Of a stretch of 64,000 bases of DNA, positions 43,941 to 60,661 are shown one piece after another. Position 1 is the stretch's first letter. Each line of letters starts with the position of its first letter. The stretch comes from Micromonospora zamorensis (lineage in GTDB: Bacteria; Actinomycetota; Actinomycetes; Mycobacteriales; Micromonosporaceae), in NCBI RefSeq assembly GCF_900090275.1, contig NZ_LT607755.1:3224001-3288000 (forward strand), in the 5' to 3' direction. Below the pieces are notes generated by a model, which saw only the letters and a program-made list of their open reading frames with translations, did not search any database and was not told where the DNA came from. The translations under genes and the position numbers were made by a program.

Positions 43941-46646
43941 TCAGTCTTCGGCGAAGCGGTAGAGCACGAAGTCCTTCTCCGCGCCGCAGGCGATCACGTG
44001 GGTGTTCCACGAACAGGACGCGCTGCGGACGTCCTTCAGCTCGCCCAACTCGTCCACCTCACCGGACTCGGCCCACACACCGGCCAGTACGCGGTTGTCC
44101 GCGACCACGCTGGGCGCCTTGGCGAAGACCAGCAGGTTGCCCTCGTCCAGCCGGACCGCCACACCGCCCCGGTCGGACAGCACCGGCTTGCCGGCGGCGT
44201 CGAAGAGGGTGACGGTCGGGTCCGGGTACTCCCGTTGGGCGAGCAGCCGCTCACCCAACGGGACCAGGTCGGTCACGCCCGGCGCCGACCAGCGGATCGC
44301 GGGCTCACCCTCGGTCGCCGCCACCACCTCGGTGCGCGCGGCGTCGTTGTTCGGCACCTGCAACAGGCAGGCCCGCCGCTCGCCGCAGGCCACCAGTCCC
44401 TTCGGGCGGTAGTCGTCGTTGCCCGCCCGGTGCAGCACCACCGGCGCCGCGTCGGAACCCAGGTCGTACGACAGCAGCTGGTACCCGCCGTCGTTGCCGG
44501 CCACGTACAGGCGGTCCTCGTGCGCGACCACCAGGTCGTCCAGGTCCGCGACGCTGCCCCAGCGGCGCAGCACCTTGCCGGACTCCATGTCGAGCAGCCG
44601 CACCGACCGGTCCGCGCCGACCTGGATGAGCTGCCGCCCCTTGCCCGTCCACGAGTTGCGGGGCGTGCCGTCGAGGAAGGCCGGCCCGCCCGCCGCCTTC
44701 GCGGTGCCCACCGGCCGGACCACTGTGCGGCTGCCGTCGAACTGGTCGCGGGGGGTGGGCTGGGCCCACTTCTGGGTGCCGTTGCTCAGGCGCAGGCCGA
44801 CCAGTTGGGCCGCGGTCCGGTCCACGAGAACCGCCGTGTCGTCGGCGAAGTAGACGTTGTCGTCACCACGGATCGACCGCTGCCAACGCTGTTCGCCCGT
44901 ACGCGCGTCGAGCACGGCCAGCGGGCGCGGGGTGCTGTCGCCCGATGCGTCGGCGAGGACCGCGACCGCCCCGGGGACGGCGATGATCGCCTCCCAGTCG
45001 TCGGCCCGCGCGTCGGTCTGCTCGCGCCACAGCTCGTCGCCGGTTGCGGTGTCGACGGCCACTACCTCCAGCCGGTCGTCCGGCAGCGGGAACCCGAGGT
45101 AGGCCCGGTCGCCGAGCATCGCCGTCCACATGCCGGCCGGCCGCTCGGTCCCGGCCTTGGGCCGGGACAGTTCACGCAACGACCCGAACTCCAGATCCGG
45201 GTAGCGGTCACGGGTCAGGTAGATCGTCGCCGCGGCGCCCACCCCGACCAGGGCCAGCACCGCGCCGAGCACCACCCAGCGCGCCCGCCGCCAGCGCGGC
45301 CCACCCGCTGGCAGGGTCGGGGCCGCTGCGGCCCAGCCCGGCCCGGGAGGCGGGCCCGCCGGCGGGGTCGGCCCCGGCCAGGGCTGCGACGGTACTACCG
45401 GCGCGGCGGCTCCGGCCGGTGCGGGCGGGCTAACGGGGCCTGGCGCGGGCGGGCTCACAGGGCCCGGCGCGGGCGGTGGTCCCGCGTACGCCGGGGCGGG
45501 CAGCGGCTTGCGCAGCGGCAGGTCGGTCAGTGCGCCCTCGGCCACCGGCAGCTCCGGCTGGTCCAGCACGGTCGGGGCGACCCCCAGCTCGGCGTGCAGC
45601 ATCCGGGCCACCAGCGGGATCCGTGACGAGCCGCCGACGAGGAACAGCCCGGCGAGCTGGTCGGGGCTGAGACCGGCTGCGGCGATCACCTCCCGGGCCC
45701 GCTCCACCGCCCGGCGCAGCAACGGCGTGGCCGCCCGCTCGACGTCCGCCCGGGTCAGCTGGACCGTATCGGCCACCCCCGGCACGGCGACCGGCGCGAC
45801 AGTGGAGCGGGACAACGTCTCCTTCGCACCCCGTACCTCGTCCCAGAACCGCACCTGGTCGCGGCGCTGCGCCGGGTCCGCCGGCCGGGTCAACCGGGCC
45901 CACTGCGCGGCGTGCCGTTCACCGACCAGCTCACCGACCCGCCGCACCAGGGCCGCGTCGAGGTCCAGACCGCCCAGGTCGGGCAGGCCACCGTCGGCGA
46001 CCACGCTGAAGCCGGAGTCACCCCACGGGTCTGCGCCCTCGTTGCGCAGCACCGCGACGTCGAGCGTGCCGCCACCGAAGTCGAACACCGCGATCGCGCC
46101 GCCGACCGGCACCGGACGATGCAGCACCTGCGTGTAGTAGCGGGCGGCGGCCACCGGCTCCCGCAGCAGCCGGGTGCCCGGCGGCGTCGGCCCGGCCAGG
46201 GTGTGCTCGGCCACCTGCGGCCACCCCGCCAGCAGCAGGGCGTCGGCGAGCACCTGCCGTCGCGTCGCGTCCCAGGCGGCCGGGCAGGTGAGAACGGCCG
46301 GGGGCAGGAAGCCGACGGTGCCCACCGCGGCCCGCGCGACCGATGCCAGCACCGCGGCGAGCAGGTCGGCCGGCGGGTACGAGCGGTCGCCGAGCACAAT
46401 GGTCGGCTCGTCCACCCGGCGCTTCGGGTTCGCCTCGAACCGGGCCGGGTCGGCCTGCGCCAACCGCCGGGCGTCCCACCCGGTGTGCAGGGTGCCGTCC
46501 GGGTCGGCGTACACGGCGGAGGGGCTGAGCGGTTGACCGTCCATCAACAGCGGACGGGTGCGCCCGTCGGGCCAGCGCAGCACTGCGACGGTGTTGGACG
46601 TACCAAGGTCGACGCCGAGGGCGAAACCCTCGTGCTGGCCTGCCAT
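43941..46646 (-). CDS. Hsp70-like ATPase fused through a membrane helix to a PQQ-type propeller
   Basis: A 901-residue chimeric protein. Residues 8-350 form an actin/Hsp70 ATPase: phosphate-1 GVDLGTSNTVAVLRW, phosphate-2 AVFDFGGGTLDVAVL (about 187-200) and adenosine motif GLFLVGGSSRIPLV (about 333-346). The Hsp70 peptide-binding domain is absent. A Pro-rich linker (about 380-450, with PAPGPVSP repeated) leads to one membrane helix (457-477). An outside beta-propeller of PQQ/WD-like repeats follows (490-901; VVAVDTATGDELWREQ, LAVLDARTGEQRWQRS). It suggests ATP-linked sensing of an extracellular ligand or cell-wall state. ATG 46646 has GGAGG about ten bases upstream. It is monocistronic. Confidence 0.88.
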   Translation of the reverse strand: MAGQHEGFALGVDLGTSNTVAVLRWPDGRTRPLLMDGQPLSPSAVYADPDGTLHTGWDARRLAQADPARFEANPKRRVDEPTIVLGDRSYPPADLLAAVLASVARAAVGTVGFLPPAVLTCPAAWDATRRQVLADALLLAGWPQVAEHTLAGPTPPGTRLLREPVAAARYYTQVLHRPVPVGGAIAVFDFGGGTLDVAVLRNEGADPWGDSGFSVVADGGLPDLGGLDLDAALVRRVGELVGERHAAQWARLTRPADPAQRRDQVRFWDEVRGAKETLSRSTVAPVAVPGVADTVQLTRADVERAATPLLRRAVERAREVIAAAGLSPDQLAGLFLVGGSSRIPLVARMLHAELGVAPTVLDQPELPVAEGALTDLPLRKPLPAPAYAGPPPAPGPVSPPAPGPVSPPAPAGAAAPVVPSQPWPGPTPPAGPPPGPGWAAAAPTLPAGGPRWRRARWVVLGAVLALVGVGAAATIYLTRDRYPDLEFGSLRELSRPKAGTERPAGMWTAMLGDRAYLGFPLPDDRLEVVAVDTATGDELWREQTDARADDWEAIIAVPGAVAVLADASGDSTPRPLAVLDARTGEQRWQRSIRGDDNVYFADDTAVLVDRTAAQLVGLRLSNGTQKWAQPTPRDQFDGSRTVVRPVGTAKAAGGPAFLDGTPRNSWTGKGRQLIQVGADRSVRLLDMESGKVLRRWGSVADLDDLVVAHEDRLYVAGNDGGYQLLSYDLGSDAAPVVLHRAGNDDYRPKGLVACGERRACLLQVPNNDAARTEVVAATEGEPAIRWSAPGVTDLVPLGERLLAQREYPDPTVTLFDAAGKPVLSDRGGVAVRLDEGNLLVFAKAPSVVADNRVLAGVWAESGEVDELGELKDVRSASCSWNTHVIACGAEKDFVLYRFAED

Positions 46647-46750
46647 CTGCCCGATACCTCCGCCGCGACGAGGGGAACTCGACCCCGCATCGTACGCAGG
46701 CCCCGCCGCCGGGCTGATCACTCGGTCAGGGGACGGTCGGGATCGTCCGC

Positions 46751-47227
46751 TCAGTGCGTGGAACGTTCGCCGACGACCTCCCCGTCGCTGCTCTCCCCGG
46801 TGGGGCGGAACCCGAGCTTCAGGTAGAACTGCTCCGGGCCTTCCGCCCCCGGATGCCACGTCGTGAAGACGCGGTCGTGCCCGCGCTCACGCGCCTCCGC
46901 ACGGACGGCGTCCACCGCGAAGCGGCCGTGCCCGCGGCCCTGGTGCTCGGCGGCGATGTTCAGCCGCCACAGACCCGAGCGCAGGTCGTCCGGTCGGGCC
47001 GGGTCCCACACGATGTCGAAGAAGCCCATCAGGAAGCCGACGATCTCGTCACCCTCGACGATCAGACGTGGCCACGCGACCTCGGGCTGCGCGTACGCCT
47101 CGGCGAGGGACCAGGCGACCGGGGACGAGAACTTCTCCTGGTCCGGCCGCACACTCACCCGGCATGCGGCTTCGACGTTGTCCGGGGTGATCTGCACGAG
47201 TCGCGGCACGCCGGCCACCCTATCCAC
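46751..47227 (-). CDS. GNAT acetyltransferase, diamine/spermidine type
   Basis: A 158-residue acetyltransferase. VQITPDNVEAACRVSVRPDQ and KFSSPVAWSLAEAYAQPEVA are characteristic of the BltD/PaiA-like group that acetylates polyamines. The acetyl-CoA loop is LNIAAEHQGRGHGRFAVDAV and the end is FYLKLGFRPTGE. The GTG start at 47227 overlaps the stop region of the DinB gene by eight bases, so the two are co-translated. Confidence 0.85.
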   Translation of the reverse strand: MDRVAGVPRLVQITPDNVEAACRVSVRPDQEKFSSPVAWSLAEAYAQPEVAWPRLIVEGDEIVGFLMGFFDIVWDPARPDDLRSGLWRLNIAAEHQGRGHGRFAVDAVRAEARERGHDRVFTTWHPGAEGPEQFYLKLGFRPTGESSDGEVVGERSTH

Positions 47228-47926: not shown

Positions 47927-48637
47927 TCAGGAGTCGGCGGCGCAGCGCGCGGAGAGGGCGTAGCGGAGCAGGACCACGTCGCCGATCTGGCGGGCCTCGG
48001 CCAGCCGGGCGCGGCGGCCCGGGTGCCAGGGGAAACGACCCTCGCCGACGAACCGGGGCGCCCGCCCGTCGCCGACGAAGAACGGGGCGACCACCAGGTG
48101 CAGCTCGTCGGCGAGACCGGCGGCGAGGAACTGGGCGTGCACCGTCCCGCCGCCCTCCACCATCAGCCGCTGCACACCCCGCGCGGCCAGGTCGGTCAAC
48201 AGCCATCCAGGGTCGACCGGCTCGCCCGCGTCGATGACGGTGGCCAGGCGACCGAGGCGCTCCCGGGTCTTCTCGACCGCGTCGGTGGCGCAGTAGACGA
48301 GCCGGGTCGAATCACCGGCGGTGAAGAAGCGGGCGGTCGGGTCGAGATCACCCTGGGCGGTCAGCGTGACCTTGGTGGGTGATTCGGGTCGGCCGGACGC
48401 GGCCCGCTCCGCCCGCCGACTCGGCGAGCGCACCAGCAGCCGCGGGTCGTCGCGGCGGACGGTGCCGGCACCGACCAGGATCGCGTCGCAACTGGCCCGG
48501 ACCGCGTCGACCCGGTCCAGGTCGTCGTCGTTTGACAGCAGCAGGCGTTGCTCGGAGGCGTCGTCGATGTAGCCGTCGATCGAGGCCGCGCAGCTGAGCA
48601 GCACGTACGGTCGCGAGGGCTCAGGCTGGCAGCTCAT
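47927..48637 (-). CDS. RibD C-domain / dihydrofolate-reductase-fold reductase
   Basis: A 236-residue stand-alone reductase: RPYVLLSCAASIDGYIDDAS, LRA-type DAVRASCDAILVGAGTVRRD, VQRLMVEGGGTVHAQFLAAG and LHLVVAPFFVGDGRAPRF. In riboflavin synthesis this domain reduces the ribosyl side chain of the pyrimidine with NADPH. The deaminase domain that precedes it in RibD is absent. Its ATG overlaps the ribA stop (ATGA), so it probably acts on the RibA product or a derivative. No ribB, ribE or ribH is in this operon. Confidence 0.86.
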   Translation of the reverse strand: MSCQPEPSRPYVLLSCAASIDGYIDDASEQRLLLSNDDDLDRVDAVRASCDAILVGAGTVRRDDPRLLVRSPSRRAERAASGRPESPTKVTLTAQGDLDPTARFFTAGDSTRLVYCATDAVEKTRERLGRLATVIDAGEPVDPGWLLTDLAARGVQRLMVEGGGTVHAQFLAAGLADELHLVVAPFFVGDGRAPRFVGEGRFPWHPGRRARLAEARQIGDVVLLRYALSARCAADS

Positions 48638-49317
48638 CGGGGGCCAGCCCGGTCGGAGGTGCCACTCGTGAGCGCTTCCGCCGCCTCGGCCTCCGCCGCC
48701 TTGGCCGCCTTCGCCGCCAGGTAGTCCGCGTTGGCCGGGGAGAGGAACACGCTGGTGGGCACCCGCTCGGCGACGTCCACGCCCAGCTTCGTCAGCTGCT
48801 CGGCCTTGTCCGGGTTGCTGCTGAGCAGTCGGATCCGCGGCACGTCCAGCGTGGCCAGCATCTGTGCGGCGGCGGTGTAGTCCCGCTCGTCCTCGCCCCG
48901 GCCCAGCGCCACGTTGGCCTGGTAGGTGTCCAGCCCGGCGTCCTGCAACGCGTACGCGTCGAGTTTGGCGTACAGGCCGATGCCGCGACCCTCCTGGCGC
49001 AGGTAGAGCAGGAAACCGCCAGCTTCGGTGATCCGCTGCACCGCCTCGCGCAACTGCGGCCCGCAGTCGCAGCGTTGGCTGCCGAACACGTCGCCGGTCA
49101 GGCACTCGCTGTGCGGGCGGACCAACGGGGGCTCTCCCCCGGCGGCGAGCCGGTCCAGAGCGCCCGCCCAGTCGCCGAGACCGAGTGCGAGGTGCTCCCG
49201 GCCGTCCACCAGGCCCTTGAACGAGAACACCCGGACCGTCGTGGAGTAGCCGTCGGGAAACGTCAATGGCACCGTGACCTGCGTACGGATCGTGGCGACC
49301 GGCAATGCTTCGGGCAT
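48634..49317 (-). CDS. ribA: GTP cyclohydrolase II
   Basis: A 227-residue stand-alone GCH II without the RibB domain. Zinc cysteines 72, 83 and 85 lie in HSECLTGDVFGSQRCDCGPQ, and the substrate loop is LLYLRQEGRGIGLYAKLDAY. Tyr122 corresponds to the E. coli RibA Tyr105 that is lost in a Streptomyces paralogue making a formylated pyrimidine, so ordinary GCH II chemistry is expected. It hydrolyses GTP to 2,5-diamino-6-ribosylamino-4-pyrimidinone phosphate, formate and pyrophosphate. The last 30 residues are Ala-rich. It lies 57 bases after the membrane-protein stop. Confidence 0.93.
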   Translation of the reverse strand: MPEALPVATIRTQVTVPLTFPDGYSTTVRVFSFKGLVDGREHLALGLGDWAGALDRLAAGGEPPLVRPHSECLTGDVFGSQRCDCGPQLREAVQRITEAGGFLLYLRQEGRGIGLYAKLDAYALQDAGLDTYQANVALGRGEDERDYTAAAQMLATLDVPRIRLLSSNPDKAEQLTKLGVDVAERVPTSVFLSPANADYLAAKAAKAAEAEAAEALTSGTSDRAGPR

Positions 49318-49374: not shown

Positions 49375-50313
49375 TCAACAGCCGCCGACGGGGGCGGCTT
49401 CCCGGGCGGCGACCGGAACTCGATTGCGCCGGGCCAGCAGCACGGCCGCTCCGGGCAGGCTGGCGACCAGGATCAGTGCACCGTAGACGGTGGCGGTGGC
49501 GACGCCCTCGGCCGCGCTGAGGCCGGCCGCGCCGAACACCCACGCGGCCACCCCCTCGCGCGGGCCGAAGCCGGCGACGTTCAACGGCAGGCCCATGGCG
49601 AGCAGGGCGAGCAGCGTCAACGGCAGGAGTCGTGACAGCGGGGCGTCCGATCCGGCGGTACGTGCCGCCACCAGGAAGGTGGCCAGGTGACCGGCGACCA
49701 TCACCGCGGAGGCGATCAGCACGCCGAGCCAGGTGCGCCGGGCCAGCAACCCGGACCGCACGTCCGCCACGGCGGTGCGCATCGCCCGCGCCCAGCGCGA
49801 GGGGCCGGCGTTCGGCACGGCCCGGGCCAGCAGCACGGTGACCAGCCCTCCCGCGAGCAGCATCCCGGCGGCGATCGGCAGGTACGGCCGCACCGGGGAC
49901 GGGAAGGCCGCGAGCACCACCAGCGCGACGCCGACCAGCACCACCTGCCCGGCGGTGCGTTCCCAGACCACCGCGCGGATGCCCCGGCTGACGTCACCGG
50001 CGTCCCGGCCGTGGCGGACCGCCCGGTGCACGTCGCCGAGCACACCGCCGGGAAGGGTGGCGTTGAGGAACACGGCCCGGTAGCAGTGCGCCACGGCGGT
50101 CGCCAGCGGCAGCCGCACGCCCAGACCACCGGCGACCAGGCTCCACCGCCATGCCGCGCAGACAGTGGTGAGCACCCCGATGACCAGCGCCGCAGCCAGC
50201 GCCGGCGCGTCGATCAGTCGCACCCCGGCGAGGAACGGGCCGGTGCCCACCTGCCACAACAGGACGGCGAGCAGACCCACCCCACCGACCACTCGTGCCC
50301 AGGCCCAGAACAT
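49375..50313 (-). CDS. Integral membrane protein, LPG-synthase TM-like (UPF0104)
   Basis: A 312-residue protein with about eight hydrophobic helices. Segments such as AAWRWSLVAGGLGVRLPLAT, RAVFLNATLPGGVLGDVHRA (the family P-G-G-x-G-D/E motif) and LLAMGLPLNVAGFGPREGVA identify the AglD/UPF0104 family. That fold corresponds to the membrane part of lysyl-phosphatidylglycerol synthase and often accompanies glycosyltransferases as a flippase or glycolipid enzyme. Here it lies in the same operon as a GT4 glycosyltransferase, implying a lipid-linked or exported product. Confidence 0.84.
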   Translation of the reverse strand: MFWAWARVVGGVGLLAVLLWQVGTGPFLAGVRLIDAPALAAALVIGVLTTVCAAWRWSLVAGGLGVRLPLATAVAHCYRAVFLNATLPGGVLGDVHRAVRHGRDAGDVSRGIRAVVWERTAGQVVLVGVALVVLAAFPSPVRPYLPIAAGMLLAGGLVTVLLARAVPNAGPSRWARAMRTAVADVRSGLLARRTWLGVLIASAVMVAGHLATFLVAARTAGSDAPLSRLLPLTLLALLAMGLPLNVAGFGPREGVAAWVFGAAGLSAAEGVATATVYGALILVASLPGAAVLLARRNRVPVAAREAAPVGGC

Positions 50314-50379: not shown

Positions 50380-51198
50380 TCATCCGTCGGCGAGGAGGTC
50401 ACTGTGTTCGACCAGGACGGTGAGCCGCCCGGCCGCCGCGTCGGCCAGCCGACGCCGGGCGTACGCCTCGGCCGGGCCGGCCAGGTCGGGACGCTCTTCG
50501 CAGGCCGCGCCCAGCCAGCCCCGGAACCACTCGGCGGCCAGGTCGGCGTGCTCCGGGCCCAGCCGCCACGGGCTGGGCCGTTCCCGCACGTGCACGCCCC
50601 GCCGGGCGAACGCGGCGACGGTGGCGGCGACGGCGTCCGGGCCGAGCAGCCGCCGGCCGTCGACCGTACGCCGTTGGTGGTCGTTGAACGCGGCCTCGAC
50701 CACCGCGTCCAGTGGATCGGCCGGGGTGAACCGGACCCGCCCGGTCACCGAGAGGGCGAAGAGGGTCGGCCGGCCCACGCAGGCGGCCACCACCCGCTCG
50801 ATCTCCTCGACGCTGAGCATGTCCAGCAGCGCGGACGCGGTGAACAGCGAAGCATCGGCCAGGTCGGCGGCGCTCAGCCGGGTGAGGTCACCGCAGCGGG
50901 TGCTCACGGTGACCGGGGCGCCGTCGGAGGCGCTCACCCCGGTCATGCCCTCGGCGGCGCGGGCCAGCAGGTCGGCGTCGCGGTCGTGCAGCACCCAGTG
51001 CTGCGCGCCGGGCAGGCGGGGTGCCACCCAGCGGCTCATCGAGCCGGTGCCGCTGCCCAGGTCGTGGATCACCGTCGGGGCGTCACCGGCCAGTCGGGGG
51101 CGAACGGCGTCCAGCAGGTCCTCGGCACGCGCCGCCGCGTCGGCCGGCTCCCGCAGTCGCAGCCAGTCGGCGAACGGCAGGGTCTCCTCGACGGTCAT
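50380..51198 (-). CDS. Class I SAM-dependent methyltransferase
   Basis: A 272-residue methyltransferase. Motif I is TVIHDLGSGTGSMSRWVAPR (D-x-G-x-G-x-G variant). The next acidic loop is HWVLHDRDADLL, and motif IV-like DASLFTASALLDMLSVEEIE follows. A C-terminal stretch RVRFTPADPLDAVVEAAFND then HQRRTVDGRRLLGPDA is characteristic of this operon's protein rather than of a general family I can name. The acceptor is unknown. Its ATG overlaps the glycosyltransferase stop, so both modify the same product in all likelihood. Confidence 0.85.
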   Translation of the reverse strand: MTVEETLPFADWLRLREPADAAARAEDLLDAVRPRLAGDAPTVIHDLGSGTGSMSRWVAPRLPGAQHWVLHDRDADLLARAAEGMTGVSASDGAPVTVSTRCGDLTRLSAADLADASLFTASALLDMLSVEEIERVVAACVGRPTLFALSVTGRVRFTPADPLDAVVEAAFNDHQRRTVDGRRLLGPDAVAATVAAFARRGVHVRERPSPWRLGPEHADLAAEWFRGWLGAACEERPDLAGPAEAYARRRLADAAAGRLTVLVEHSDLLADG

Positions 51199-52277
51199 CC
51201 CGCCACCTCCTCCAGCGCGGCGGCCAGCAACGCGGTGGTCACCGGCCAGTCGGTCAGGGTGTCGCGCCGGGCCAGAGCGGCACGCCGCAGTCGAGCCCGC
51301 AGCGGGTCGTCGGTCAGCCAGCGGGTCAACGCGTTGGCCAGCGCGGCGGGGTCGTCCGGGGCGACGAGCAGGCCAGGCCGGTCACCGCCGGGCGTGTGAC
51401 CGAGCGCCTCCGGCAACCCGCCGACCTCGGTGGCGAGCACCGGCAGGCCGCGCGCCAGCGCCTCGGTGACGACCATCCCGTACGTCTCGCCCCGCGACGG
51501 CAGGACCAGCAGGTCGGAGTCGGCGTACGCGGCGTCCAGCGCCGCTGCGGTCAGCGGACCGACGAGGCGCACCCGCTCGGTGAGGCCGGCGCCCGTGAGC
51601 CGTTCCCGCAGCCGCCGCACGAGGTCCGGCTCCCGGGTCAGGGTGCCCGCGCACACCATCGTCCAGCGCAGCCCGACCAGCGTGGACAACGCGTCGACCA
51701 GCACGTCGTGCCCCTTGTGGTGGGTGACGGCCGCGACGCAGAGCAGCCGGTCGCCGGTGACCGAGCCGGGTGCCGGCGGTGCCGGCCGCACCCCGGGAGG
51801 CGCCGCCCGGATCCGGTCGGCGAGCGCCGGATGGCGGGCCACCAGGTGACGGCGGGTCCACTCGCTGGTGGTGACGACGGCCCGGGCGGTGGTCAGCGCC
51901 CGGGCCTCCGCCGCGTCGTCGAACGGCAGGTGCACGAGGACGACCAGGCGCAGCCGGCGGGCATGCGGCACGAGCAGGTCCGGCACTGTCGAGGCGATCA
52001 GGCCGTCGAGCAGCACCACGGCGTCGTCGGGCGTGGCGTCGAGCAGCTCGGTCAGCTTCGCCCGGTCGACCGGGTCGGGGGCCGGCCACGCGCCGGGCAC
52101 CGGGTGCTCGCGCACCGACCAGCCGCGCTCACCGAGCCCCGCGCAGACCCGCCGGTCGTACGTGTTGCCACCGCTGGGAGTGGCCACGTCGTCGATGTCA
52201 CCGGGCAGGACGACGTGCACCGTGCGGAAGGTCGTGTCCGACTCGCCGGTGGACGCCGTCCGACCGGCATCGATCAC
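51195..52277 (-). CDS. GT4-family glycosyltransferase
   Basis: A 360-residue GT-B enzyme. The N-terminal domain has the acceptor-side loop [20 protein letters not shown] (G-G-x-x). The C-terminal domain has [20 protein letters not shown] (donor phosphate region) and [20 protein letters not shown], the E-x7-E retaining motif that binds the sugar nucleotide. It is cytoplasmic or membrane-peripheral. GTG 52277 overlaps the stop of the pterin-synthase-like gene. Donor and acceptor are unknown. Confidence 0.88.
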
Positions 52278-52678
52278 AGCGAACGCTCGTAGCTCGCCCA
52301 GGCGATGTGCGACTCGTGCAGCGTGACGGTGATGCCGGTGAGGTCACGCGCCCCCGCGCCCAGGTCACCGGCGTGGACCCGCTCGACCAGCCGGTCCGCG
52401 ATGGTGCGGGCCAGCACCTCGGTGGTCGTGTTCACCCCGGCGAAGGCCGGCTCGTCGTCGAGGTTGCGGTAGGTCAGCTCGCCCAGCACGGCCCGCAGCT
52501 GCTCGGTGGCCAGGCCGATGTCGACCACGATTCCGTCGGCGTCCAGGTCGGGCCTGCGGAACGTCGCGTCCACCACGAAGGTGGCTCCGTGCAGACGCTG
52601 GGCCGGGCCGAACACGTCGCCCCGGAAACTGTGGGCGATCATCATGTGATCCCGAACGGTCACGCTGAACACTGTCAC
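52274..52678 (-). CDS. 6-pyruvoyltetrahydropterin synthase/QueD homologue with altered active site
   Basis: A 134-residue T-fold protein: [70 protein letters not shown] and [16 protein letters not shown]. Aligned to E. coli QueD, zinc ligand His16 and His31 (here His30) remain, but the third (His33) is Ala32. The catalytic Cys27 is Ala26, and the Asp70-His71 pair is Thr69-Tyr70. The substrate-anchoring Glu near the end is kept. Normal PTPS/QueD chemistry should be impossible, while a pterin or purine-like ligand may still bind. GTG 52678 overlaps the dehydrogenase stop (GTGA). Confidence 0.88.
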
Positions 52679-53658
52679 TCCCCGTCGTCGTAGGTGATGA
52701 GGTGGCAGAGCGCGGGCAGGTCGCCCGTGCTCAGTCTGGCAAGCACGTCGGGCAGCTCCGCGAACCGGGACGCACCGGTGATCAGGGCGTCGAAGGCCGG
52801 GTCGTCGAGCAGGTCGAGGGCGAGCGCCAGCCGGTCGGCGTAGCTGCGCCGCCCACGCCGGGCGGGCGCGACCATGCCGACCTGGCTGCTGCGTACGCTC
52901 AACCGGCCGGAGTGGAACGCCCCACCCAGCGACACCTGCACCTGGCGGTCGCCGTACCAGCTCAGCTCGATGACAGTGCCCTCCGGCGCGAGCAGGTCCA
53001 GCGAGCGTTGCAGGCCGGCACTGGTGGCGCTGGCGTGCACCACGAGGTCCCGGTCGCCGGTCGCGTCGTCCGGTTGGGCGAACTCGACACCGAGCGCGCC
53101 GGCCACCCCGGCCCGCCGGGCGTCGGTGTCGACCAGCTCGACGTGCACGCCGGGAAAACGGGCGAGCAGCGCGGCGACACAGCAGCCCACCATGCCCGCA
53201 CCCACGACGGTGACCCGGTCGCCGACCAGTGGTGCCGCGTCCCACAGCGCGTTGACGGCGGTCTCCACCGTGCCGGCGAGCACCGCCCGGGCCGGAGGCA
53301 CCCCGTCCGGCACGGGCACCACGGCGGTGGCCGGCACGACGTACGCACTCTGGTGCGGGTGCAGGCAGAAGACCGTGCGCCCGAGCAGGTCCGGCGGGCC
53401 CTGCTCGACCACGCCGACACTGAGATAGCCGTACTTCACCGGGCCGGGGAAGTCACCCTCCTGAAAGGGCGCGCGCATGGCGGCGTGCTGGTCGGCGGGC
53501 ACCCGGCCGGCGAAGACCAGCGTCTCGGTGCCCCGGCTGACCCCCGAGTACCGGGCCCGGACCAGCACCTCGTCGGGCCCCGGAGCGGGCAGCGTCACAG
53601 GCCGGATCTCCGCCGCGCCGGGCTCACGCACCCAGCAGGCGTACGCCTCGCGGTTCAC
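52675..53658 (-). CDS. Zinc-type alcohol dehydrogenase superfamily, BchC-like
   Basis: A 327-residue medium-chain dehydrogenase. The N-terminal domain contains [20 protein letters not shown], where SRGTE replaces the usual catalytic C-x-x-D/T-x-x. This is the pattern in BchC-type dehydrogenases. The Rossmann loop is [20 protein letters not shown] and the NAD Asp follows in [12 protein letters not shown]. The catalytic zinc ligands of classical ADH are not evident. GTG 53658 has a GAGG about nine bases upstream. It is the first gene of the operon that runs to 47927, with a likely promoter at 53730-53757. Confidence 0.84.
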
Positions 53659-53729
53659 CGTCGCGCACCTCACCTCTTGCTCGAGGCCGCACCGAGCGGC
53701 CAGGCTTCCGTGCCCCTCCCGGGTTGTCG

Positions 53730-53795: not shown

Positions 53796-54785
53796 CTACC
53801 AGCGGTTGCGCGCCTCCTCGGCCCAGCCGACGAGCCCGTCGAGGCTCACCTTCGTCCCGTCGTCCGTCTTCGCCCAGCCGGAGAAGTGCCCGAAACACTG
53901 GTGGGTCTCGTTCGCGACGACACCCAGGTTGGTGCGGGCAACCTTCTCGTGGAACGGCTGGAACTCGGCCTCGACCCGTTCCCCGCTGATCCGCCACGGG
54001 CGAAGCCAGTCCGACCGGTCGTAGGTCCAGCGCAGTTCCTCGCCGATCTTGTGCAACCGGCCGTCGACGAACAGGCCGTTCTCGGTGACCCCGGTGCCGT
54101 CAGTCCACTGACCGCCGAGCTGGATCGCCCGTCCCGGTGCCGCACCGGCGGCCCAGTTCCACGTGATCGCGTACGGCCATCTGCCGCGACCGTGGTCCAG
54201 CACGGCGAACGCGTCCGGCCCACCGATCTCGTACTTCTGGCCGTGCAGTTCCAGTGTGCCGAGGACAGGGCGGCCGACGTCCTTGACCGTGTACTGGAAT
54301 CGCGTAGGGCTCCACGGCACGACCACGCCGAGCGACTCGTGACCGGCCGGCAACGGCACGTCCACCTCCAGCCGCACTCCGGGGGCGCTCGCCGAGATGG
54401 CGGTGCCGTCCGGGCGCTGAGCGATCCGGATCGCCAGGCCACCGCCCTGTGCACGAACCTCGCCCACGCCGCTGTGCGGCGGTAGTACCGTTCCGCGCGC
54501 CAGCGGCACCACCACGTCGGCCTTCGTCTCGGTGCCGCTGTCCCGGTCGAGCACATAGACGCTGTGCACGCCGGCGTAGTCCAGCGACGAGGCGACCAGC
54601 CCGACGATGTGCTGCGGCGTCACGATGCCCCAGTACTCCCACCGCTTGGTCCGGCCCCAGCCGCGCAGGTTCGCGGTGTGCAGCGGGCGGCGTGTCCAGC
54701 CGACCGCCGCAGGATTGAGCCGCCCGCCCGGTTGGCACAGCTCGGCAGGTGAGGACAGTTCGCGTTCGTGGGTCACGAGGTGCAC
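53796..54785 (-). CDS. DUF2804 domain protein
   Basis: A 329-residue protein of the DUF2804 family. Recognisable segments are LCQPGGRLNPAAVGWTRRPL, RTKRWEYWGIVTPQHIVGLV, VLDHGRGRWPYAITWNWAAG and GQWTDGTGVTENGLFVDGRL. The D-x-G-R-G-x-W-P-Y-x-x-x-W-x-W motif is the family core. It is predicted to be a beta-rich, lipocalin-like fold; the function is unknown, with no signal peptide visible. It is upstream of, and on the same strand as, the 53.7-47.9 kb operon, but is separated by that operon's promoter, so it is probably independent. Confidence 0.85.
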   Translation of the reverse strand: MHLVTHERELSSPAELCQPGGRLNPAAVGWTRRPLHTANLRGWGRTKRWEYWGIVTPQHIVGLVASSLDYAGVHSVYVLDRDSGTETKADVVVPLARGTVLPPHSGVGEVRAQGGGLAIRIAQRPDGTAISASAPGVRLEVDVPLPAGHESLGVVVPWSPTRFQYTVKDVGRPVLGTLELHGQKYEIGGPDAFAVLDHGRGRWPYAITWNWAAGAAPGRAIQLGGQWTDGTGVTENGLFVDGRLHKIGEELRWTYDRSDWLRPWRISGERVEAEFQPFHEKVARTNLGVVANETHQCFGHFSGWAKTDDGTKVSLDGLVGWAEEARNRW

Positions 54786-55109: not shown

Positions 55110-56330
55110 ATGACGCGTGCTGTCCCCGCCCCACCGAGCGGCACCCCCGGCAACGAGCGACTTGTCCTCGCCGCGCTGCGGGGCGGAGCCGTTCTCAGCC
55201 GGACCGAGTTGAGTGCCACGACCGGCCTGCCGAAGACGACGGTGACCGGCATCGCCAATCGCCTCCTGCAACGGGGCATGGTCGTCGAGCACACCGCCGA
55301 CACCGGACGACGGCATCGCAGTCGCGGCCGACCCGCGAGTGGCCTCGCGCTGGCGGACCCCGGCGGCCTGGTCGCCGCCCTGTGCTTCAGCCACACCACG
55401 ATCCGGGCCGCGGCGGTCGGCTGGGACGGCACCTTTGCCGCCCACCGGCAACGCGACATCGGTGGCGATCGCGACCAGCAACGCGTGCTCGACCGAGGGC
55501 TGCGCCTGCTCGAAGAGGCGTTCGCCGAGGCGGGGTCGACGCCGGAGCAGGCCGACTTTGCCGTCATCGGCGTTCCGGCAGCCTTCGAACGGGGGGTCGG
55601 GGCGGCATTCGGCCGGATGCCCGACGCCGCCCGCGAGGCCGTACCCGAGCTCGCAAAGGTCTTCGGTTGGTTTCGCTCAGACCCGCAGCCCATGGTCACC
55701 GAACGCCTGGGCATCCCGACGGCGGCGGAGAACTACGCCAACCTCGCAGCGCTGGGCGAGGCGACCGCCGGGGCGGGGCGCGGCCTGGACGACCTCATCT
55801 ACATCAAGCTGGTCGAGGGGGTCGGCGCCGGGCTGGTCCTCGGTGGCCGACTGCACCGAGGTGCGCGCGGCCTGGCTGGGGAACTGGCGCATGTGCAGGT
55901 GCTTCCCAACGGACGATGGTGCCTCTGCGGAAGTCGCGGCTGCCTCGCGGTGACGTACGGCGACTTCGTGGAAACGATCGGCTCGACCTACCCGCAACCG
56001 ATGACTGTCGCCGACATCCGCGAGCTCGCGGCTGCGGGCGAGGTGGGCACCCGACGCATCCTGGCGGACCTCGGTCGGGGCTTCGGGCGAGTGCTCGCCG
56101 ACGTCTGCGTGCTGCTCAGCCCGGAGGCAATCATCGTGGACGGAGCGCTCGGCGCGGCGGCAGAACCGTTTGTCGCCGGCATGCGCGAAGCGATGGACCA
56201 GCGCATGCCGAGCGTCATGGCGGAGTCCGTGCAGCTGCTCACCGGCGAGCTCGGGGAACGGGCCGAGCTGCTCGGTGCGGTCGCGCTCGCTCGGGCGGGA
56301 CAACTGCCCGCCGCGACCGTCAGCCGGTAA
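55110..56330 (+). CDS. ROK-family transcriptional regulator
   Basis: A 406-residue protein. The N-terminal winged helix-turn-helix is LSRTELSATTGLPKTTVTGI followed by ANRLLQRGMVVE. The sugar-kinase-like ROK domain has LIYIKLVEGVGAGLVLGGRL and GLAGELAHVQVLPNGRWCLC, then GSRGCLAV. G-E-x-x-H and C-x-C-G-x-x-G-C are the zinc-binding ROK signature. It should repress genes until a sugar or sugar phosphate binds. The obvious downstream targets are the two secreted esterases and perhaps itself, through the 55069 palindrome. Confidence 0.9.
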   Translation: MTRAVPAPPSGTPGNERLVLAALRGGAVLSRTELSATTGLPKTTVTGIANRLLQRGMVVEHTADTGRRHRSRGRPASGLALADPGGLVAALCFSHTTIRAAAVGWDGTFAAHRQRDIGGDRDQQRVLDRGLRLLEEAFAEAGSTPEQADFAVIGVPAAFERGVGAAFGRMPDAAREAVPELAKVFGWFRSDPQPMVTERLGIPTAAENYANLAALGEATAGAGRGLDDLIYIKLVEGVGAGLVLGGRLHRGARGLAGELAHVQVLPNGRWCLCGSRGCLAVTYGDFVETIGSTYPQPMTVADIRELAAAGEVGTRRILADLGRGFGRVLADVCVLLSPEAIIVDGALGAAAEPFVAGMREAMDQRMPSVMAESVQLLTGELGERAELLGAVALARAGQLPAATVSR

Positions 56331-56342
56331 CGGACGGGTCAC

Positions 56343-56385
56343 GGACGCAGCGCGTCCGCAACACCAAATTCACCCTGGTGTTGCG
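56343..56385. terminator. Double hairpin after the ROK gene
   Basis: GGACGC/GCGTCC (about 56343-56357) is followed by the perfect 10-bp inverted repeat CGCAACACCA (56357-56366) and TGGTGTTGCG (56376-56385). It starts 13 bases after the ROK stop, so a terminator is likely. The second repeat could also be an operator for the esterase. The remaining bases to 56658 form a long leader with no gene that I can support. Confidence 0.55.
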
Positions 56386-56658
56386 AAGTCTCCTGGTAGC
56401 GGTAATGTTCTGCCGGACAACAAAGCCTTCCTCCGTCCTCGGCCGGTCGGGGGAAGCGCCAGCGTCGCGACCGTTCCACTCCGGCTCCTTGCCCGGTACT
56501 CGCCTGAACCGTCGCCTGGCCTCCTTCACGGGCCGGTGCATTCGTTGATCCGATGCACCTCCCGTTCACGTGGACTCCCCCGTCCACGACAACCTGCGGC
56601 ACCGGACCGGTGCGAGCCGGGGACCTCCCCTGCCGCAAAAATGGAGGTACGACCACCG

Positions 56659-58293
56659 ATGAAGATCCGACCCACCGCTCGATGGGTGGCGGGGGTGTCA
56701 GCCGCAGCGACTGTTGCCCTGGCCGTCACCGCAGGCCCACCCGCCATGGCAAATTTCGCCAGCGCCTCACGCGGCGCCAGCACCTACCCCGGCCAGTCCC
56801 CCGTCGTCCAGACCGACAAGGGTGCGGTCCGTGGCGAGGCCAAGAGCATGGTGACCTCCTTCAAGGGCATCCCCTTCGCCGCGCCGCCGACCGGCGACCT
56901 TCGCTGGAAGGCACCGCAGCCGGCCGCCAGGTGGAAGGCCACGAGGGACGCGACACAGTTCGGGGCTTCCTGCGTACAGGGCACCGGCTGGGATCCCGGA
57001 TATGACAAGCCCACGCTGACCGAGGACTGCCTCTACCTCAACGTGTACCGCCCCAGCACCGCCTCAAAGAAGAACCTCCCGGTCTTCTTCTGGATCCACG
57101 GCGGCGGCAACTTCGCCGGCGCAGGGCGCGACACCAACCCGGACAAGTTCGTGACGCGGGAGGACGTCGTCTACGTCACGATCAACTACCGGCTCGGCGC
57201 CATGGGCTACCTCGTGAACCCGGCCCTTGAGGCGGACAACCGCGACGGCTCGGCCGGCAACTTCGCGATCCTGGACCAGCAGGCGGCTCTGCGCTGGGTG
57301 CAGAAGAACATCAAGGCGTTCGGCGGCAACCCCGACAACGTCACAGTTGCCGGGCAGTCCGCGGGCGCCGGCAACACGGCCGTGCAGCTTGCCTCGCCCA
57401 CCGCGCGAGGTCTCTTCGACCGCGCCATCCTCCAGAGCGGAGGCGGCAGTCCTCTGCGGACGTTGCCGGCGGCCCGAGAGAGCGGCGAGCAGTTCAGCGC
57501 CGAAATCGGCTGCCCGACGGGCGCGGGCCAGGTCGACTGCCTTCGCTCGAAGAGCCCCACCGAGATCCTCGCGGCGCAGGCCAAGGTCCGTCAGTCGGGC
57601 GCCGTCGCCGGCACTCGCGTCGTGCCGACCGATCCGATCGAGCTGATGAAGACCGGCAAGCTGACCGACCTGCCGGTCCTGGTCGGCGGCACCTCCGACG
57701 AGTCGCAGCAGAGTGTCTTCGCCGCGTACGACTACCTCGACAAGCCGCTCACCACCGCACAGCTCAACACCCTGATCTCCACCACGTACCCGAATGGTGT
57801 CGACCAGATCCGTGCCACCTACCCGGTGGTGAACTACAAGTCGCCCACCGTCACCTGGGGTGCGATCCAGAGCGACCAGCGTGCGTGTCGGGATCAGACG
57901 CTGCGCGAGCGGCTGGCGAAGGACACCAGGACCTACGCCTACGAGTTCGCCGAGAAGAATGGCCCGGCCTTCGTCTCGATCTGGCGCCTCAACACCGACT
58001 ACCCCTTCGGTGCCACCCACGTGAACGACCTCGGCTACCTCTGGGACTACCTCGGCACGGCCCTGCCCTTCAGCGGCGAGCAGGTCGACCTGTCCAACCA
58101 GATGATCAGCTACTGGGGCAGCTTCGCCCGCGACGGTAACCCGAACGTGCAGTTCGCGCCGACCTGGCCCCGGTACGCCCCGCAGGGTGACCTCCTGCAG
58201 TTCGCGGCACCCAGCGCCCAGCGGGTCGCCGACACCAAGGTCGGCGAATCGCACAACTGCTCGGTGTGGGACGCGGTCAGTCCCGCTGTCTGA
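56659..58293 (+). CDS. Secreted type-B carboxylesterase 1
   Basis: A 544-residue esterase with a signal peptide (MKIRPTARWVAGVSAAATVA..., cleavage near AMA-N). Family marks are FKGIPFAAPPTGDLRWKAPQ, LTEDCLYLNVYRP, the oxyanion loop FFWIHGGGNFAGAG, nucleophile Ser234 in VTVAGQSAGAGN, acid in VGGTSDESQQSVF and His in GATHVNDLGYLW. It hydrolyses carboxylic esters outside the cell; the natural substrate is unknown. ATG 56659 starts the signal peptide, with GGAGG eleven bases upstream. A homologous esterase follows 118 bases later. Confidence 0.92.
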   Translation: MKIRPTARWVAGVSAAATVALAVTAGPPAMANFASASRGASTYPGQSPVVQTDKGAVRGEAKSMVTSFKGIPFAAPPTGDLRWKAPQPAARWKATRDATQFGASCVQGTGWDPGYDKPTLTEDCLYLNVYRPSTASKKNLPVFFWIHGGGNFAGAGRDTNPDKFVTREDVVYVTINYRLGAMGYLVNPALEADNRDGSAGNFAILDQQAALRWVQKNIKAFGGNPDNVTVAGQSAGAGNTAVQLASPTARGLFDRAILQSGGGSPLRTLPAARESGEQFSAEIGCPTGAGQVDCLRSKSPTEILAAQAKVRQSGAVAGTRVVPTDPIELMKTGKLTDLPVLVGGTSDESQQSVFAAYDYLDKPLTTAQLNTLISTTYPNGVDQIRATYPVVNYKSPTVTWGAIQSDQRACRDQTLRERLAKDTRTYAYEFAEKNGPAFVSIWRLNTDYPFGATHVNDLGYLWDYLGTALPFSGEQVDLSNQMISYWGSFARDGNPNVQFAPTWPRYAPQGDLLQFAAPSAQRVADTKVGESHNCSVWDAVSPAV

Positions 58294-58411: not shown

Positions 58412-59995
58412 GTGAGAAGTTTCCCCAAGCGTCGCCTGGCCACCTGGGCTGCCGCCGTGATCGCCCCTGTGCTGCTGCTCGGCGCGGGCGCCAGCGCCGT
58501 CGCCCAGGCGGACAGCAAGGGCGACGGACGCGGCGGTGACCCCGTCGTGCAGAGCCGGAACGGGCTCGTCCGTGGCGTCGCGACGAACCAGTTCGACCAG
58601 TTCCTCGGCCTGCCGTACGCGGCACCCCCCGTACGCGACCTGCGGTTCGCCCCTCCGGCCGCGCCGGAGTCGTGGCGGGGAATCCGGTCGGCCGATCAGC
58701 AGGCCCCGGCATGCGTGCAGTTCGAGCCGACCGGGATCCGCGAGGAGCAGGCCGTCAGCGAGGACTGCCTCTACCTCGACGTCTACCGGCCGAGCAAGGT
58801 CGCGAAGAACGCCAAGCTGCCGGTCATGCTCTGGTTCCACGGCGGTGGCCACACCCAGGGCACCGGCGTCATCTACGGCGGCGGAACGATGGCGGCCAAG
58901 ACCGACACCATCATCATCTCGATCAACTATCGCCTCGGGGCGCTCGGCTTCCTCGCCCACCCCGCGCTCAGCGCGGTCACGGACGGCGGCTCCGGCAACT
59001 ACGGCCGGATGGACCAGCTCGCGTCGATGAAGTGGGTCCGGGACAACATCGCCAACTTCGGCGGCGACCGGAACAACGTGACGATCTACGGCCAGTCCGC
59101 CGGCGGACAGGGCGTGTGCGACATGCTCGCCATGCCGGCCGCCAAGGGGCTGTTCCACAAGGCGATCGTGCAGAGCCAGCAGTGCCTGGCCACCCGCAAC
59201 ACGCTCGCGGTCGGCGAGCAGCGGGGTGTCGGGTTCGCCGAGTCGGTGGGTTGCACCGATGCCGCCACCGTTGTCAACTGCCTGCGCGCGGCGTGGCCCG
59301 GGAAGCTCGTCGCCAACCAGGCGAACTACCTCGGTAACTCCAAGGTGGGCGGCTCGCTGCTGCCCAAGTCGTTCGCCGACGCGTTCGCCGACGGCACCTG
59401 GAACAAGGTGCCGGTGATGTCCGGTACCACGCGCTCCGAGAACCGGCTCACCGAGACCGCCCTCGCCGGAATCACCGCGCAGGGCTACGTCGACACGATC
59501 AAGCGTGAGTACGGCGACAAGGCCGACCGCGTCCTCGCGACGTACCCGCTGAGCAAGTTCAAGAGCCCGTGGGACGCCATCACGCAGGTGCACACCGACG
59601 CTGGTCGCGCGTGCCAGACCGAGCAGGCCGCTCGGGTGATCTCGACCAAGACCCCGCTCTACCGCTACGAGTTCAACGACCCGACCTCGCCGACCCTGTA
59701 CGGGTTCCGCGTCCCGGGTGAGGATGTCTCCAACGGACACAGCGGCGAGCTGGCCTACCTGTTCGACTTCACTCTCGGCGAGCGGCCCCTCACCGCGCAG
59801 CAGAAGAAGCTGTCGGACCAGATGATGCGGTACTGGGGCGCCTTCGCCCACAACGGCAACCCGAACTACCGGGGTGCCCCGTCGTGGCCGACCTACGGCG
59901 GCGACGAGAACGTCATGCAGTTGCGCACCGGCGGAGCGAGCCGAGTGATCAACACCTTCGCGGCGGAGCACAACTGCGGCCTCTGGCTCAGCTGA
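58412..59995 (+). CDS. Secreted type-B carboxylesterase 2
   Basis: A 527-residue paralogue of the preceding esterase with its own signal peptide (RRLATWAAAVIAPVLLLGAG, cleavage near AQA-D). It has SEDCLYLDVYRPSK, MLWFHGGGHTQGTG, Ser229 in VTIYGQSAGGQGV, the acid in GTTRSENRLTET and His in DVSNGHSGELAYLF. Sequences have diverged strongly outside the motifs, so the duplication is old or the genes came together separately. The GTG start (58412) directly precedes the Arg/Lys-rich signal N-region. A terminator follows 33 bases after the stop. Confidence 0.92.
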   Translation: MRSFPKRRLATWAAAVIAPVLLLGAGASAVAQADSKGDGRGGDPVVQSRNGLVRGVATNQFDQFLGLPYAAPPVRDLRFAPPAAPESWRGIRSADQQAPACVQFEPTGIREEQAVSEDCLYLDVYRPSKVAKNAKLPVMLWFHGGGHTQGTGVIYGGGTMAAKTDTIIISINYRLGALGFLAHPALSAVTDGGSGNYGRMDQLASMKWVRDNIANFGGDRNNVTIYGQSAGGQGVCDMLAMPAAKGLFHKAIVQSQQCLATRNTLAVGEQRGVGFAESVGCTDAATVVNCLRAAWPGKLVANQANYLGNSKVGGSLLPKSFADAFADGTWNKVPVMSGTTRSENRLTETALAGITAQGYVDTIKREYGDKADRVLATYPLSKFKSPWDAITQVHTDAGRACQTEQAARVISTKTPLYRYEFNDPTSPTLYGFRVPGEDVSNGHSGELAYLFDFTLGERPLTAQQKKLSDQMMRYWGAFAHNGNPNYRGAPSWPTYGGDENVMQLRTGGASRVINTFAAEHNCGLWLS

Positions 59996-60382: not shown

Positions 60383-60661
60383 GGTGCATGCGCAGCTTCG
60401 GCTGCTCCTGACTTCTTTCCTCCCGATCGTCCCCTTCGCTGCTCGCCCCTGGCTCACTGATCCAGCGCGGGCGGCCGGCCCGGCTCCACCTGCGGCCACG
60501 GCTCCATCGCGAACCCTGCACGAGACCGGCAGGACTCCCTCGTCATCAGCCGCTTCAGCTCCGCCGGGCTGGCGCGGCCCGACGCTGCCGAAACCAGTCG
60601 TACAGCCACGGACACCGGCGTCCTTGGCGCCCAGGCATCCCCCTTGAAGGAACAGGACCCC

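Follow-up and report, generated by a model that had tools for sequence, protein, structure and literature searches.

Homologues of PTPS that lack zinc are not new. The structure of SCO6650 from Streptomyces coelicolor (PDB 3d7j) was released on 2008-10-21, and a 2008 paper in Acta Cryst. F reportedly described this protein as having no zinc, no catalytic triad and no PTPS activity, with a pterin-like pocket that is retained. The PTPS-IV subfamily of COG0720 has the signature FGPAQ (available portions of PMC5445326 and PMC5041015). In the available portion of the AGeNNT paper, the genomic neighbours of PTPS-IV (cluster 62) are PF00925 and PF01872, and no GT4 glycosyltransferase, dehydrogenase, creatininase, CDP-alcohol transferase or LtaP-like partner is named for it (PMC5445326). 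The same portion takes PF00925 to be GTP cyclohydrolase I/FolE2. The part of the review PMC13259868 that was available does not mention PTPS or Streptomyces. Overall, the surrounding pathway is less explored than the PTPS-IV protein itself, at least in the open-licence literature, where absence is weak evidence.

We analysed a stretch of 64,000 nucleotides from Micromonospora zamorensis (the window). At 52274..52678 on the minus strand, it encodes a T-fold protein of the PTPS-IV type, without a zinc site, the catalytic Cys or the Asp-His pair. This protein is 77% identical to SCO6650, in which the Cys and third-His sites are likewise occupied by Ala and the Asp-His pair is also lost, with Asn where the window protein has Thr69. 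Both PF00925 and PF01872 are present in the window's operon, as for PTPS-IV, but the PF00925 gene is a GTP cyclohydrolase II (RibA). A related operon is found at other Streptomyces loci. Where RibA was seen in those loci, it has Met at a key position and is accompanied by a creatininase, while the RibA of the window's operon is of the Tyr type, and that operon lacks a creatininase.

Our main reading, to which we give a probability of roughly 50%, is that PTPS-IV is a metal-free T-fold protein that handles a diaminopyrimidine or pterin intermediate in a dedicated GTP-derived pathway, whose glycosylated product may be attached to the membrane. The operon points to an uncharacterised route that starts from GTP and is common in both Micromonospora and Streptomyces. 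Its list of partners replaces the label of a PTPS homologue without known function by definite steps that can be tested.

Residues lost and retained in PTPS-IV

As the original prediction held, the gene is intact and translationally coupled: the frame is open (134 amino acids from a GTG start), and it has a 4-base GTGA overlap with each flanking gene. A second GTG, with GGGGAG before it (by eye), lies two codons downstream at base 52672. This second start seems likelier than the first, and it would give a protein of 132 amino acids, which is the length of most of the 120 relatives listed. The window's genome has just this one PTPS copy. (One other genome, G302, has two PTPS-IV copies on different contigs, loci L129 and L156; their identities to the window's copy are 76% and 69%.)

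The protein belongs to the PTPS superfamily (81.3 bits against PF01242, with a cut-off of 22.4), and its scores are far under the cut-offs of the curated models for QueD (35.5 vs. 89.25 bits) and PTPS (23.5 vs. 125.5 bits). An AF2 model of the protein (mean pLDDT 94.1) matches 3d7j with a TM score of 0.98 and an rmsd of 0.9, and it matches the structures of QueD and PTPS with query-normalised TM scores of about 0.7-0.8. The T-folds FolB and uricase are weaker matches.

We mapped the functional residues onto E. coli QueD (a PTPS-I, from NC_000913), which shares the T-fold, two His and a Glu with the window protein and is 21-23% identical to it in fold alignments. H16, H31 and E110 of QueD correspond to H16, H30 and E122 of the window protein. 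In contrast, QueD's third His, its Cys and its Asp-His pair are replaced (H33 by A32, C27 by A26, D70 by T69 and H71 by Y70). These are exactly the residues, both kept and lost, that had been named from the sequence. The window protein does not have the complement expected of an active PTPS or QueD (three zinc-binding His, the Cys and the Asp-His pair), and it contains none of the motifs of PTPS-I (CxxxHGH), PTPS-II (CxxxxxHGH) or PTPS-III (ExxHGH), as given in the available portions of PMC5041015 and PMC5445326.

PTPS-IV might be a cryptic PTPS or QueD that uses other residues for the same reaction, since the fold and the ring anchor are the same. This is very improbable: the motifs are absent, the curated models score far too low, and none of the neighbouring genes that we found to be conserved is a queuosine gene. 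The 2008 abstract on SCO6650 is also said to state that this protein has no zinc and does not carry out the PTPS reaction. The Micromonospora records listed name the protein 6-carboxytetrahydropterin synthase or 6-pyruvoyltetrahydropterin synthase. Those names are unsupported, because the residues of PTPS-IV do not fit them.

To see how widely the changes are shared, we used an alignment of 157 rows: the window protein, QueD, and 155 others, including the window gene refetched as L001. Among the 128 distinct rows that are at least 65% identical to the window protein (L001 is one of them), the signature FGPAQ, which the window protein contains, is present in 125, and conservation reaches 98% or more at 45 of the 134 positions. 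A26, A32, H16, H30, E122, R71, L73 and D74 are present in all 128. At the site of the missing Asp, 80 rows have Asn, 40 have Thr and 8 have others (Asp in one row); at the site of the missing His, 123 have Tyr and 5 have others (His in two rows). The original prediction proposed to check whether the changed positions are invariant in the clade: A26 and A32 are, and the Asp-His sites vary. The six rows at 45-64% identity are similar, except that one is incomplete and one has Val for A32. We also searched for homologues with the catalytic Cys, and found it in 0 of the 133 rows that reach the position (134 rows at 45% identity or above, one of them incomplete). The loss at the Cys and third-His sites is fixed, not local. 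E122 and E87 are present in all 151 PTPS-IV-like rows, and the four QueD-like rows retain the zinc His, the Cys and the Asp-His pair.

More distant relatives from the Rubrobacteraceae (family f18, which includes Rubrobacter indicoceani, by a 100% match; 32-38% identity) keep all three zinc His, yet all 17 have Ala for the Cys, and 15 of the 17 have His and Tyr for the Asp-His pair. Homologues in the same operon with the Cys, His and Asp would have refuted the original prediction; these have the zinc His but not the Cys. In the four Rubrobacteraceae loci that we read (L170-L173), the PTPS gene lies between those for a dehydrogenase and a glycosyltransferase, as it does in the window. Because these proteins keep three His with Ala for Cys, and the four loci read share the core gene order, the losses were probably stepwise, with the Cys and the Asp-His pair going first and the zinc ligand later.

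The missing catalytic residues might also suggest a decaying gene that is drifting towards loss. We rejected this idea, and give it practically no credence, because the gene is strongly conserved and intact, with no internal stops in the listed matches. Of the original prediction, four points are supported: the loss of the catalytic apparatus of PTPS and QueD, the retained Glu that anchors the ring, an operon that is shared with RibA, and a repurposed role.

The operon and its partners

Directly before the PTPS gene, and also on the minus strand, is an MDR-type dehydrogenase (52675..53673). Its nearest curated model is BchC (54.8 bits, with a cut-off of 291); it has no match to ADH_N, and its matches in the PDB are weak. 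Downstream of PTPS, and all on the minus strand, are a GT4 family glycosyltransferase (51195..52277), a SAM-dependent methyltransferase (50380..51198; 27.6 bits against Methyltransf_25, with a cut-off of 27), a flippase-like membrane protein (49375..50313; LPG_synthase_TM, PF03706), RibA (48634..49317), and a RibD_C-type reductase without a deaminase domain (47927..48637, with its start placed by eye at an ATGA overlap with ribA). The best curated model for the reductase is the archaeal 2,5-diamino-6-ribosylamino-pyrimidinone 5'-phosphate reductase (133.6 bits, with a cut-off of 186). Upstream of the dehydrogenase, at 53796-54785 on the minus strand, is a DUF2804 protein (PF10974, 350.6 bits), in the place where many Micromonospora relatives have a CDP-alcohol transferase and an LtaP-like gene. 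In genome G509 (locus L181), another gene that resembles DUF2804 by eye has a CDP-alcohol transferase/flippase pair about 6 kb away.

We compared the neighbourhoods of 137 loci (80 plus 57 further ones, after removing the duplicates L117, L120 and L131; the two sets may still share near-duplicates). In every locus, a relative of the dehydrogenase lies upstream of PTPS and a relative of the GT4 enzyme lies downstream, both on the same strand and with identities down to 35% (in Rubrobacteraceae). The dehydrogenase is within 400 bases of PTPS in 132 loci; the exceptions are L058, L096, L123, L157 and L163. Other companions are the flippase-like protein (121 of 137 loci), the methyltransferase (120), a CDP-alcohol phosphatidyltransferase (PF01066; 119), RibA (108) and a creatininase (PF02633; 61). 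When we clustered called genes from 73 loci, no further family was present in more than 11. This does not prove that nothing else is conserved, because our home-made gene caller is crude: it misses genes, it merged RibA with RibD_C, and it had hidden the LtaP-like domain by merging it with the CDP-alcohol transferase. In five loci (L063, L073, L077, L167 and L169; three are from Pseudonocardia), RibA and RibD_C are in one open frame.

None of the operon's proteins has a deaminase domain, and a deaminase motif was found within 7 kb of PTPS in just 2 of the 137 loci. Both look TadA-like by eye (HAE...PCAMC, in L165 and L166 from f3 genomes) and are probably unrelated neighbours. We also noticed that three loci from genus g231 (L145, L150 and L152) have an MFS transporter and a second methyltransferase-like gene between GT4 and the operon's methyltransferase. 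In a Rubrobacteraceae cluster, a gene for a FolB-like protein (dihydroneopterin aldolase) lies just past RibD_C on the opposite strand (L171:10301-10678).

Given that PTPS sits between the dehydrogenase and GT4 in all 137 loci, with 4-base overlaps in the window, and has lost its catalytic residues and a zinc ligand while keeping the Glu in the pocket, it could be a scaffold or binding subunit without enzymatic activity, which would keep an unstable reduced intermediate for these two enzymes. We think that this is possible but doubtful. A third of a protein's positions being nearly invariant (the 45 of 134 mentioned above) is what might be seen in an active site, and the related T-folds FolB and uricase catalyse their reactions without zinc. 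We lean towards the reading in which PTPS-IV acts on the intermediate, but sequence does not separate a catalyst from a binding protein.

The pairing of a GT4 enzyme with a PTPS-fold protein is reminiscent of cyanobacterial pterin glycosides, although the window's operon has no GTP cyclohydrolase I. A search for the nearest structures to the GT4 protein matched many GT4 enzymes and was unspecific: the cyanobacterial UDP-glucose:tetrahydrobiopterin glucosyltransferase (5ze7) is among the matches, at 27.9 bits, but many GT4 enzymes score higher.

We tested the membrane partners for co-occurrence across a sample of 394 class-level genomes, 57 of which have PTPS-IV (at 58 places, of which all but a fragment in G357 were retrieved); these counts ignore kinship. 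The CDP-alcohol transferase is found in 56 genomes: 53 of the 57 with PTPS-IV (all but G355, G491, G543 and G622) and 3 of the 337 others (G337, G481 and G509). The flippase-like protein is found in 52 genomes (50 of 57 vs. 2 of 337) and the LtaP-like domain in 40 (38 of 57 vs. 2 of 337). The window's genome carries its CDP-alcohol transferase gene together with the LtaP-like one, about 197 kb from the operon. We considered whether the CDP-alcohol transferase might be a chance neighbour, and rejected this, as it co-occurs with PTPS-IV even when it is unlinked.

The LtaP-like domain is within the PTPS stretch at 48 listed loci, two of which are duplicates. It is fused to the CDP-alcohol transferase in several lineages, and is often adjacent to it otherwise. 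All 25 members that we compared with PF00884 matched it at E values no higher than 0.5, the lowest being 2.3e-10. A bit score is given for one match, and at 23.8 it falls short of the cut-off, which is 25. With a 25-row profile, the best match in the PDB is a lipoteichoic acid primase (4uop, E = 1.5e-5; the best for a single stretch is 0.0018), while a 6-row profile had no PDB match up to E = 1. Comparisons by hhalign with single sequences of E. coli OpgB and LapC, with an unrelated E. coli protein as a control, found no match. The likeness to the lipoteichoic acid primase and synthase (LtaP and LtaS) would lie in a domain that resembles the sulfatase fold and is either next to a CDP-alcohol transferase or fused with it. 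The similarity of the domain itself is weak, however, and in the window's genome it is far from the operon. A lipid end product is not universal, because there are no CDP-alcohol transferase or flippase genes nearby in L165-L168 or in four Rubrobacteraceae stretches.

RibA comes in two forms

The window's RibA scores well above the cut-offs of the Pfam model (187.6 vs. 23.3) and NF001591 (246.5 vs. 148) and below that of TIGR00505 (181.4 vs. 205.85). A Tyr aligns to residue 105 of the E. coli protein, also a Tyr (counted on the alignment). The window's genome has two PF00925 genes, with the second RibA elsewhere, and it has no creatininase.

Across the loci, the residue at this position goes with the presence of the creatininase. 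All 48 loci with a Tyr-type RibA lack a creatininase in the stretch, while 59 of the 60 loci whose RibA has Met, His, Leu or Gln have one; in the 60th (L154), the creatininase is about 13 kb from PTPS in the genome. Here, "no creatininase" means that one query had no tblastn match at E = 1e-6 within the stretch, and the stretches differ in length. These 108 loci omit 29 of the 137 that have no RibA in the stretch (27 with neither gene and 2 with creatininase only). Three genomes with a Tyr-type RibA (G466, G204 and G643) do have an unlinked creatininase, so the pattern concerns the cluster and not the genome. Also, the 108 loci should not be taken as independent cases, and a Fisher test on them is not independent evidence. 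In a tree of RibA (75 rows), the association amounts to one change, and in a tree of the dehydrogenase and PTPS core (85 rows), there are two concerted changes; of these, one falls within Pseudonocardia, where the branches have moderate support.

RibD_C follows a similar divide. Of the 49 loci that have RibA but lack creatininase, 47 contain it; of the 61 with creatininase, just 13 do. A ribityl step is therefore not general, unless an unlinked gene carries it out.

We tested the creatininase of L062 against curated models. It belongs to the superfamily (PF02633, 212.8 vs. 31.3 bits) but is not an ArfB equivalog (NF033501, 32.4 vs. 180 bits), and it is nearer to MftE (131.8 bits, with a cut-off of 172). 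The Met-type RibA of S. coelicolor, SCO6655, reportedly makes the formyl compound FAPy instead of APy. In archaea, GTP cyclohydrolase III, a formamide hydrolase (ArfB) and a reductase act in turn, by way of a formyl intermediate that is deformylated (available portion of PMC13028884). The Streptomyces form would resemble this route in having a formyl intermediate, a hydrolase from the creatininase superfamily and, in some clusters, a RibD_C reductase. It differs in that its cyclohydrolase is a relative of GTP cyclohydrolase II and its creatininase falls short of the ArfB model. As for SCO6655 itself, the part of PMC2853524 that was available reports that its expression is anticorrelated with predicted flux (-0.61), and places it in a table of genes that mostly rise in stationary phase.

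The resemblance to the archaeal route raises the question of whether the cluster contributes to coenzyme F420, or to a different deazaflavin, instead of a pterin. One title cited in the available part of PMC13028884 names deazaflavin, and we also counted a statement in the available part of PMC5041015 in favour. But this would leave GT4, the CDP-alcohol transferase and the LtaP-like partner unexplained. PTPS-IV is also absent from all 20 of the "same order" genomes listed, which we take to include makers of F420, and from 3 of the 8 Streptomyces genomes listed (genus g7, identified as Streptomyces by the duplicate loci L117 = L075 and L120 = L098). Overall, we consider a role in making F420 unlikely.

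A proposed pathway

Returning to the reading that we favour, in which PTPS-IV handles a diaminopyrimidine or pterin intermediate, we infer the following substrates and order of steps. PTPS-IV would have given up the zinc and the Cys/Asp-His chemistry and kept a pocket for a 2-amino-4-oxo-pyrimidine or pterin ring, within a pathway that is dedicated rather than housekeeping. From GTP, RibA would make APy, a diamino ribosylaminopyrimidinone phosphate. The changed RibA of the Streptomyces form would yield FAPy, which the creatininase-family hydrolase would deformylate. Where RibD_C is present (as in nearly all of the Tyr-type clusters, including the window's), it could produce the ribityl compound by reducing APy. 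Next, the dehydrogenase might oxidise a hydroxyl of the side chain. PTPS-IV would bind the oxidised intermediate, and probably promotes a metal-free isomerisation or ring closure to give a dihydropterin-like product. The GT4 enzyme could then glycosylate the product, and the methyltransferase could methylate it. Finally, the CDP-alcohol phosphatidyltransferase, the flippase-like protein and the LtaP-like transferase might link it to a phospholipid or to the surface of the cell. For example, a pterin glycoside might serve as the headgroup of a lipid, or it might receive phosphoglycerol from the LtaP-like enzyme.

The gene content suggests that the 2-amino-4-oxo pyrimidine is kept along the pathway, because the operon's proteins have no deaminase domain, the motif scan turned up just the two TadA-like genes, the RibD_C is of the type described above, and Glu122 is conserved. 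The ring closure can be compared with GTP cyclohydrolase I, which reaches a 2'-ketone by an Amadori rearrangement. A reductase together with a secondary-alcohol dehydrogenase could also yield a 2'-ketone, which a T-fold protein could close to a dihydropterin. This ketone step would fit poorly with the creatininase-type clusters that lack RibD_C.

A bolder version is that Actinobacteria make a pterin-type compound without GTP cyclohydrolase I, by way of RibA, RibD_C, oxidation at C2' and ring closure by PTPS-IV. This pterin would be glycosylated and joined to a phospholipid by the CDP-alcohol transferase, and the LtaP-like enzyme would then present it on the envelope or pass it to the envelope. 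If true, there would be a pterin-bearing surface lipid or polymer. We consider this version quite unlikely, in part because 48 of the 61 creatininase loci lack RibD_C.

Away from the operon, the window encodes several other proteins of possible interest, all described by eye. The open reading frame at 43941-46859 on the minus strand combines a Hsp70/DnaK-like N-terminal region, a proline-rich linker, a transmembrane segment and a PQQ-like beta-propeller. On the plus strand, 56170-58293 and 58412-59995 encode tandem secreted proteins that resemble carboxylesterases and have GQSAG motifs, and this pair is followed by a secreted protease-like protein with an HELGH motif (60644-61984).
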